A DNA stretch of 64,000 bases from Kangsaoukella pontilimi (lineage in GTDB: Bacteria; Pseudomonadota; Alphaproteobacteria; Rhodobacterales; Rhodobacteraceae): the NCBI RefSeq assembly GCF_009830125.1, contig NZ_WUPT01000001.1:1-64000 (forward strand). The letters are read 5' to 3'. Made by a program: the position numbers and the translations under genes. The stretch's first letter is position 1; each line of letters begins with the position of its first letter. This document shows, one piece after another, positions 19,505 to 21,219 of this stretch. The notes beneath the pieces are model-generated. The model ran no database searches. It saw only the letters and a program-made list of their open reading frames with translations, and was not told where the DNA came from.

Positions 19505-19528
19505 GTATCGGACGCTCCGACACTGCCA

Positions 19529-19555
19529 AAGCCGCCCCCTCCGGGCGGCTTTTTC
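19529..19555. terminator. Bidirectional terminator after rplQ
   Basis: A 9-bp stem (19529-19537 with 19543-19551) and a CCTCC loop, then TTTTTCAGTTTT to the right and an AAA start on the left. It ends the ribosomal transcript and could also end the small minus-strand gene whose stop is at 19554. Confidence 0.8.
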
Positions 19556-19779: not shown

Positions 19780-19823
19780 AATTTAAAGTTGACAGATCGC
19801 CTGCCAAGATGTCCAATTGGACA
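19780..19823. promoter_or_regulatory. lux-box-like palindrome with divergent promoter elements
   Basis: A perfect 14-bp palindrome (19810-19823, TGTCCAATTGGACA) resembles LuxR-type binding sites. On the minus strand it sits just upstream of TTGGCA (19807-19802), 16 bp and TAAATT (19785-19780), so its centre would be roughly 43 nt before the start of a leftward transcript, the classic activating position. On the plus strand TTGACA (19789-19794) lies 17 bp before the centre of the palindrome, so LuxR binding there could block or tune luxR. Confidence 0.55.
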
Positions 19824-19905
19824 GGTCAATCAGGAAGAAGTCGATTATTGTACCGTCCTCGCGAGCTGGTCGCGGGCGACTCCAGATGATTTGACAGGTG
19901 AGTAT

Positions 19906-20577
19906 ATGTGGCGCGGAAATCAGGACTATGCCTCGCTGATCAAGGACGAGGTTGCGCGGCACGGCGATAGGGCGCGCCCCCGGATGCAGGACAGCTTCGA
20001 CGCGCTCGCGGCGATGTCGCCGGCGGGGTTTTCGGCGGGGCTGCATATCCGCTTCGCGTCGCCCATGGTCTACGTGCGCACTTACGATCCATGTTGGACG
20101 CGGACTTATGACGAGAACGCCTATGCCCTTCGCGACCCGCTCGTCTTTTGGGGTCTGAGCAAGAAAGGCGTCACGCGGTGGAGTGAAATACGGCTGCCCG
20201 ATCCGTTCGGCATCATGGATCAGGCCCGGAACCATGGTCTGAAGTACGGCGTCGTGGTGTCCTGCGGGCAACTGACCTCGCGCACCATCGTCGGTTTCGC
20301 CCGTGCCGATCGCGAGTTCAGCGACGCCGAAATGGCCGAAGGTCAGCATATCGTCCACGCACTGCATGTGGCGGCGGAGCCGCCCACGGAATTGACGCCA
20401 GCCCAGGTCGAGGCGCTGCGTCTATTGGCTGACGGGGACCGCCATACAGCAGCGGCGGCAAAGCTGGGGATCTCGGAAAGTGCATTCAAGGCACGACTTC
20501 AGTCGGCGCGGGTCCGGCTTGGGGCAAGGACGACGGCACAGGCGCTCAAGAAGGCAAGGCAGTACCAGCTTCTCTAA
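19906..20577 (+). CDS. luxR: LuxR-family acyl-homoserine lactone regulator
   Basis: A 223-residue quorum-sensing transcription factor. The N-terminal autoinducer domain has YDPCWTRTYDENAYALRDPL, with the Trp, Tyr and Asp-Pro that contact AHL in TraR/LasR, and a later WSEI. The C-terminal GerE helix-turn-helix reads LTPAQVEALRLLADGDRHTA, then LGISESAFKARLQSARVRLGA. The ATG at 19906 follows CAGGTGA; an in-frame TTG at 19789 would add 39 residues through the promoter and is rejected. luxI lies 51 nt downstream. Confidence 0.88.
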   Translation: MWRGNQDYASLIKDEVARHGDRARPRMQDSFDALAAMSPAGFSAGLHIRFASPMVYVRTYDPCWTRTYDENAYALRDPLVFWGLSKKGVTRWSEIRLPDPFGIMDQARNHGLKYGVVVSCGQLTSRTIVGFARADREFSDAEMAEGQHIVHALHVAAEPPTELTPAQVEALRLLADGDRHTAAAAKLGISESAFKARLQSARVRLGARTTAQALKKARQYQLL

Positions 20578-20631
20578 GCTGACAGCCTCCCCAAGACGGT
20601 TTCACAACCCAGCTTGGAGGCTGAACAAATG
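20575..20631 (+). promoter_or_regulatory. Hairpin sequestering the luxI ribosome-binding site
   Basis: CAGCCTCC at 20583-20590 pairs perfectly with GGAGGCTG at 20616-20623, which contains the luxI Shine-Dalgarno GGAGG (20616-20620). An inner AAG/CTT stem (20593-20595 with 20613-20615) extends it past a two-C bulge. The 5' arm lies 5 nt after the luxR stop codon, within the footprint of a terminating ribosome. An alternative pairing AAGCT/AGCTT (20576-20580 with 20611-20615) would leave the site freer. Confidence 0.6.
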
Positions 20632-21219
20632 CAAGTTACGACCCTTTCCTTCGACAATATGCACAACCATGGCGAGCTTTTTGCCAACATGCTTCGCGCG
20701 CGCTACCGGACCTTCGTCGAGAGGAACCGCTGGGATCTGCCGGTGGCCGACGGCATGGAATACGACCAGTACGATACGCCGGCCAGCCGGTGGGTGGCCG
20801 TTCACGAGCTGGGGCAGGTGCTGGCCGGGGTTCGGCTGACGCCGACCATGGCGCGCTGCGGGATCTATTCCTACATGATCCGGGACGCGCAGCTCGGGCT
20901 TCTGGAGTCGATCCCGGAGGACCTGTTGTTCGAAGATGCACCCGTCGCGCCGCATATCTGGGAATCGAGCCGGGTCTTCGTCTCGGACGCGGTCCCGTCG
21001 CGGCTGAGGCTGAGGGTGCAGATCGCGCTCATCGACGAGATGGTGCGCTCGGCCCGGACGTTGGGGGCGACGTCGCTGATCGGGATCGTGCCCGAACATT
21101 CGCCGCGTCTTGCCCGCCGGACGGGAATCGACTGCGTGCCCGCCGGGCCGGTGATCGAGACCGATGACGGCGACCGGAGCGTCTGCATCAATATCTCGCT
21201 TGCGACCAAGCTGCACTGA
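20629..21219 (+). CDS. luxI: LuxI-family acyl-homoserine lactone synthase
   Basis: A 196-residue autoinducer synthase that makes AHL from S-adenosylmethionine and acyl carrier protein. Invariant family residues are visible: RYRTFVERNRWDLP (Arg, Phe, Trp of the SAM pocket), the EYDQYDTP acidic pair, GVRLTPT, and WESSRVFV, with the Glu-x-x-Arg pair. The acyl-chain region has GIVPEHSPRLARRTGI. The start at 20629 is 8 nt after GGAGG. The acyl length cannot be predicted from the sequence. Confidence 0.9.
   Translation: MQVTTLSFDNMHNHGELFANMLRARYRTFVERNRWDLPVADGMEYDQYDTPASRWVAVHELGQVLAGVRLTPTMARCGIYSYMIRDAQLGLLESIPEDLLFEDAPVAPHIWESSRVFVSDAVPSRLRLRVQIALIDEMVRSARTLGATSLIGIVPEHSPRLARRTGIDCVPAGPVIETDDGDRSVCINISLATKLH

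Follow-up and report, generated by a model that had tools for sequence, protein, structure and literature searches.

The luxR and luxI genes of the marine bacterium Kangsaoukella pontilimi are joined by a hairpin that closes the Shine-Dalgarno sequence (SD) of luxI and whose 5' arm lies directly behind the luxR stop codon; this hairpin and its conservation in relatives are well supported. Judging from its geometry and from comparison between genomes, we consider it probable that the junction hairpin couples translation of luxI to translation of luxR via RNA unfolding. On a dicistronic mRNA, the nucleotides right after the luxR stop would pair with the luxI SD and close it, and a ribosome ending luxR would cover or melt the 5' arm and expose the SD. 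As the SD is located about 40 nt past the stop, it would not itself be blocked, and a new ribosome could initiate luxI, so that the signal synthase would be made mainly where the receptor is being made. We infer that luxR and luxI are on one mRNA in K. pontilimi, that passing ribosomes open the hairpin in the cell, and that its purpose is to tie the synthase to the receptor.

In the window (the whole stretch of 64,000 nucleotides that was analysed), luxR (19906-20577, forward strand), encoding an AHL receptor/regulator of 223 aa (Pfam Autoind_bind, E 1.4e-10), ends with TAA at 20575-20577 and is followed on the same strand, after a gap of 51 nt, by luxI (20629-21219), encoding an AHL synthase of 196 aa (Pfam Autoind_synth, E 1e-13). 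The luxI SD, GGAGG at 20616-20620, is separated by a spacer of 8 nt from the ATG at 20629. The original prediction of a perfect 8-bp pairing over this SD was confirmed by folding: the 5' or anti-SD arm CAGCCTCC (20583-20590, forward strand; +6 to +13 nt past the luxR stop), whose pairing is kept in relatives, pairs with the 3' arm GGAGGCTG (20616-20623, forward strand), which includes the SD, and the left arm indeed starts after five unpaired nucleotides 3' of the stop. The hairpin interior (20593-20615, forward strand) contains the AAG/CTT stem already expected (20593-20595 with 20613-20615) and an additional 4-bp stem GGTT/AACC (20598-20601 with 20606-20609; loop 20602-20605) that had been overlooked; such an inner stem, as GGTT...AACC or GTTGA...TCAAC, was found again in many relatives. 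Folding of the 101-nt junction led to -24.3 kcal/mol (z -2.31, with 6 of 200 shuffles equally good) and a predicted P(unpaired) of 0.009 for the SD. Searching the gap with Rfam covariance models gave no match at E values up to 5. As the SD was equally hidden in about 20% of shuffled versions of this C-rich gap and the z-score of the single sequence was only -2.31, the case from the window sequence by itself is only moderate. These figures speak for chance or composition, with C-rich gaps pairing with purine-rich SDs and no selection involved, and a comparison with relatives was therefore needed.

Two further claims about the hairpin were not supported. A switch-like second structure had been proposed, in which 20576-20580 pairs with 20611-20615. 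It is 3.6 kcal/mol worse (-20.7 vs -24.3 kcal/mol) and has a rival in a 6-bp hairpin that spans the luxR stop (20566-20571 with 20576-20581), and the bases involved are absent in relatives, even in the congener L002. Temperature had been named as another possible control of luxI. A stem that melts on heating and frees the luxI SD would resemble the Pseudomonas lasI and rhlAB thermometers, which are reported in work cited in PMC6786874, but the SD of the window is predicted to stay closed throughout, with P(unpaired) at 0.008-0.014 across 4 to 70 °C, and an RNA thermometer is hence extremely improbable.

For the comparison, LuxI searches hit 172 of the 395 Rhodobacteraceae genomes and 80 loci from named genomes, with Silicimonas and Boseongicola as the nearest. 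In nearly all relatives examined luxR is located directly 5' of luxI, and the gap between them has a median length of 55 nt (middle half 52-62 nt, none below 36 nt; n=174). Among same-strand gaps in the window genome, 40% are shorter than 35 nt and only 7% fall within 35-65 nt. Most luxR-luxI gaps carry a pyrimidine tract soon after the luxR stop which is complementary to the SD of its own clade, with the matches CCTCC/GGAGG, CCCCTTC/GAAGGAG, CTCC/GGAG and CCTCCGCA/TGCAGGAGG. In distant relatives (L159, L170, L176, L180, L184 and similar loci) many anti-SD arms read CCTCCGCAAGG or CCTTCCGCAAGG; these arms can fold on themselves (CCTT-CCGC-AAGG) in competition with SD pairing, and a second conformation is possible in this clade. 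Two genomes contain two distinct luxR-luxI pairs about 1.3 kb apart on one contig (L014/L180 in G340, L015/L270 in G115), and each of these gaps is hairpin-like. A typical Rhodobacteraceae luxR-luxI operon, with a LuxI 74% identical, was also found in CP059262.1 (L068), titled Exiguobacterium profundum isolate SSD5; as this is a Firmicute name, the metagenome-assembled record is probably mislabelled.

As the gaps are short and rich in indels, we relied on alignment-free arm-swap tests, in which each left half was folded against the right half from its own gap or from other gaps. Across 157 distinct luxR-luxI gaps of the Rhodobacteraceae, cognate halves paired at -17.3 kcal/mol vs -14.3 kcal/mol for swapped halves (z -12.6), and shuffling of the left half reduced this to z -0.4 to -1.8. 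The signal was also seen for the SD arm only (z -10.8, 152 loci), for 75 divergent representatives (z -5.5; +0.5 when shuffled), with the SD core masked (z -5.9) and inside single clades (z -3.1 to -6.2). Consensus folding of MAFFT clade alignments gave no usable consensus in three of four cases; only Celeribacter/Pacificibacter folded. In this clade 95.4% of the cells of the aligned structure are paired and four pairs show double changes; the covariation score is 0.306, compared with at most 0.092 for slid structures. Co-variation of the arms in relatives, on which the original prediction had been staked, was thus observed both in the swap test and in this clade: the sequence varies and the complementarity stays.

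The inverted repeat adjoins a LuxR-regulated gene and might therefore be a DNA element, i.e. a LuxR operator, or a transcription attenuator or terminator instead of an mRNA structure. In Celeribacter/Pacificibacter, however, several pairs have changed G-C for G-U without loss of pairing, which speaks more for an RNA structure than for a DNA operator. Nor do the arms of different relatives share a sequence. A scan of the window gap for promoter-like or terminator-like sites revealed none. A better candidate for an operator is a lux-box-like perfect 14-bp palindrome about 80 nt 5' of luxR (19807-19826, with the core TGTCCAATTGGACA at 19810-19823), with its counterpart in L002, ACCTGTCTAATTGTACAGGT, equally far from luxR; no clear palindrome was seen 5' of luxR in the other relatives examined. 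From its sequence and position, this palindrome is probably the LuxR-AHL operator for the whole operon, and its presence in both the window and the congener suggests that autoinduction probably acts on the operon as a whole. Taken together, a role of the junction repeat as DNA element is very unlikely. Further upstream, a strong terminator-like hairpin with a T-run (19528-19552) follows the gene for ribosomal protein L17 and parts the ribosomal operon from luxR.

We also compared the SD of luxI with those of other junctions. For the genome control we took 864 kb of the window genome, which yielded 86 same-strand junctions with lengths of 35-110 nt; genes were called by codon-position GC, which is a crude caller. 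Only one of these junctions has an SD as inaccessible as that of luxI, whose value of 0.009 is the lowest of this comparison. When an SD with P(unpaired) below 0.25 is taken as hidden, this applies to 70% of the luxR-luxI junctions vs 24% of the genome controls and 21-33% of length-matched control junctions. At the luxR leaders of the same genomes (29 loci), the swap test gave z +1.7 and no SD fell below 0.25. For luxI genes with no luxR within 700 nt 5', a small set (n=10), the median P(unpaired) of the SD was 0.58 vs 0.19 for luxR-adjacent luxI genes (p about 6e-5; 12 loci were placed in the luxR-adjacent set by eye, from a visible luxR C-terminus), and the SD was hidden in one of the ten. 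That luxI genes which lack an upstream luxR are mostly unsequestered fits a dependence on luxR translation. Pairing by chance or composition is disfavoured by the swap test, and since the shuffle controls, the other junctions, the luxR leaders and the orphan luxI genes all differ from the luxR-luxI gaps as well, we regard it as improbable.

Clear sequestration is missing in about 30% of the luxR-luxI junctions of the family, notably in Jannaschia. The gaps of this genus (L020, L062, L067, L070-L073, L077, L079 and L081) are 71-83 nt long and share a conserved ACATCGCGAG-like stretch, with no clear SD-sequestering hairpin, and the junction element may have been lost or replaced in this clade.

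The position of the arms is in line with an effect of the terminating ribosome. The bases that pair with the SD are found at +11 to +17 nt past the luxR stop (interquartile range in relatives) and thus coincide with the front edge of a ribosome terminating on luxR, and the SD, starting about 40-43 nt downstream, remains usable. When 13 nt after the stop are covered, the family median of the SD opening cost falls from 7.9 to 4.2 kcal/mol, and a drop of more than 2 kcal/mol was obtained for 61% of the luxI junctions vs 11% of the controls. For the window, the opening cost of 12.4-13.4 kcal/mol is lowered to about 6.3-6.5 kcal/mol by a ribosome over 10 nt past the stop. The central claim of the original prediction is supported, that the luxI ribosome-binding site is locked in a hairpin with its 5' arm inside the footprint of a ribosome stopped on luxR. 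With 10-13 nt covered, the window SD is still predicted to be about 80% paired via residual stems; full opening would therefore not follow from geometry alone, and helicase action of the ribosome or ribosome traffic would be needed for the rest.

A closed SD may also be explained as a stand-alone translational brake, which keeps basal luxI expression low and which some factor acting in trans, be it an sRNA, Hfq or a protein, opens or stabilises; luxR translation would then be irrelevant. Control of this sort is known for AHL synthase mRNAs, namely sinI with RcsR1 and RNase E (PMC5977203) and rhlI with RhlS (PMC6786874), and a cerR deletion in Cereibacter sphaeroides retains AHL function (PMC11655674). 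A brake independent of luxR would however leave unexplained that the arm directly follows the luxR stop in most relatives and that sequestration is mostly missing where luxI has no luxR upstream, and the loop and arm sequences vary, unlike those expected for a trans-factor site. We therefore consider it unlikely.

Coupling of luxI to luxR translation by RNA unfolding would add a layer of control to luxR-luxI operons, which are usually discussed as a matter of transcription. With middling confidence, we propose a Rhodobacteraceae-wide, structure-conserved RNA element through which the AHL synthase is translated only when the mRNA of its own receptor is. Such an element would form a post-transcriptional layer of quorum sensing that fixes the synthase-to-receptor ratio, and it would be missing from luxI genes that lie apart from luxR. 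If true, signal output would track receptor translation in a widespread family of marine bacteria, and luxR mutants would have to be read anew, as an early luxR stop could cut AHL production with no transcriptional effect. Published observations such as the regulation of cerI only at the translational level would also become testable. A literature search, covering mostly sources outside subscription, revealed no earlier account in which a junction hairpin couples luxI to luxR. Translational coupling by RNA unfolding is a known kind of mechanism, and the conserved case proposed here, between luxR and luxI, seems to be undescribed and in an unexpected place.

Among known systems, cerR-cerI of C. 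sphaeroides belongs to the same family and shares the luxR-luxI order; both genes are on one mRNA as detected by RT-PCR, insertion of a cassette into cerR has a polar effect on cerI (PMC11655674), and under singlet oxygen, regulation of cerI is reported to be confined to translation (PMC3688512). It differs in a small orf2 within the gap, and a plasmid-borne operon without cerR still supports AHL-dependent swimming (PMC11655674). The latter counts as evidence against a strict dependence on luxR, unless the deletion also took the arm, and the orf2 in the cerR-cerI junction has to be kept in mind here. The sinI gene of Sinorhizobium meliloti likewise is an alphaproteobacterial AHL synthase gene under post-transcriptional control near the SD and in the 5' UTR, but there the sRNA RcsR1 and RNase E act on the 5' UTR, and the part of the source used here describes no hairpin tied to an upstream luxR stop (PMC5977203). 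In Pseudomonas aeruginosa, rhlI also lies 3' of a luxR-type gene and its translation is controlled by RNA from the intervening gap; this RNA, however, is the Hfq-dependent sRNA RhlS, an activator of translation, and not a short ribosome-binding-site hairpin at the receptor stop (PMC6786874). A matching layout is that of E. coli rpmI-rplT, which a 2025 review gives as translational coupling of the RNA-unfolding type at +52 nt (PMC12548453). Although this is a ribosomal protein operon that is not homologous, and coupling has been shown there experimentally while we infer it for luxR-luxI, both combine a gap of about 50 nt with an inhibitory structure over the downstream ribosome-binding site that an upstream ribosome can prevent without blocking that site; for f1 gene VII-IX, the same review gives coupling as lost at +89 nt (PMC12548453).
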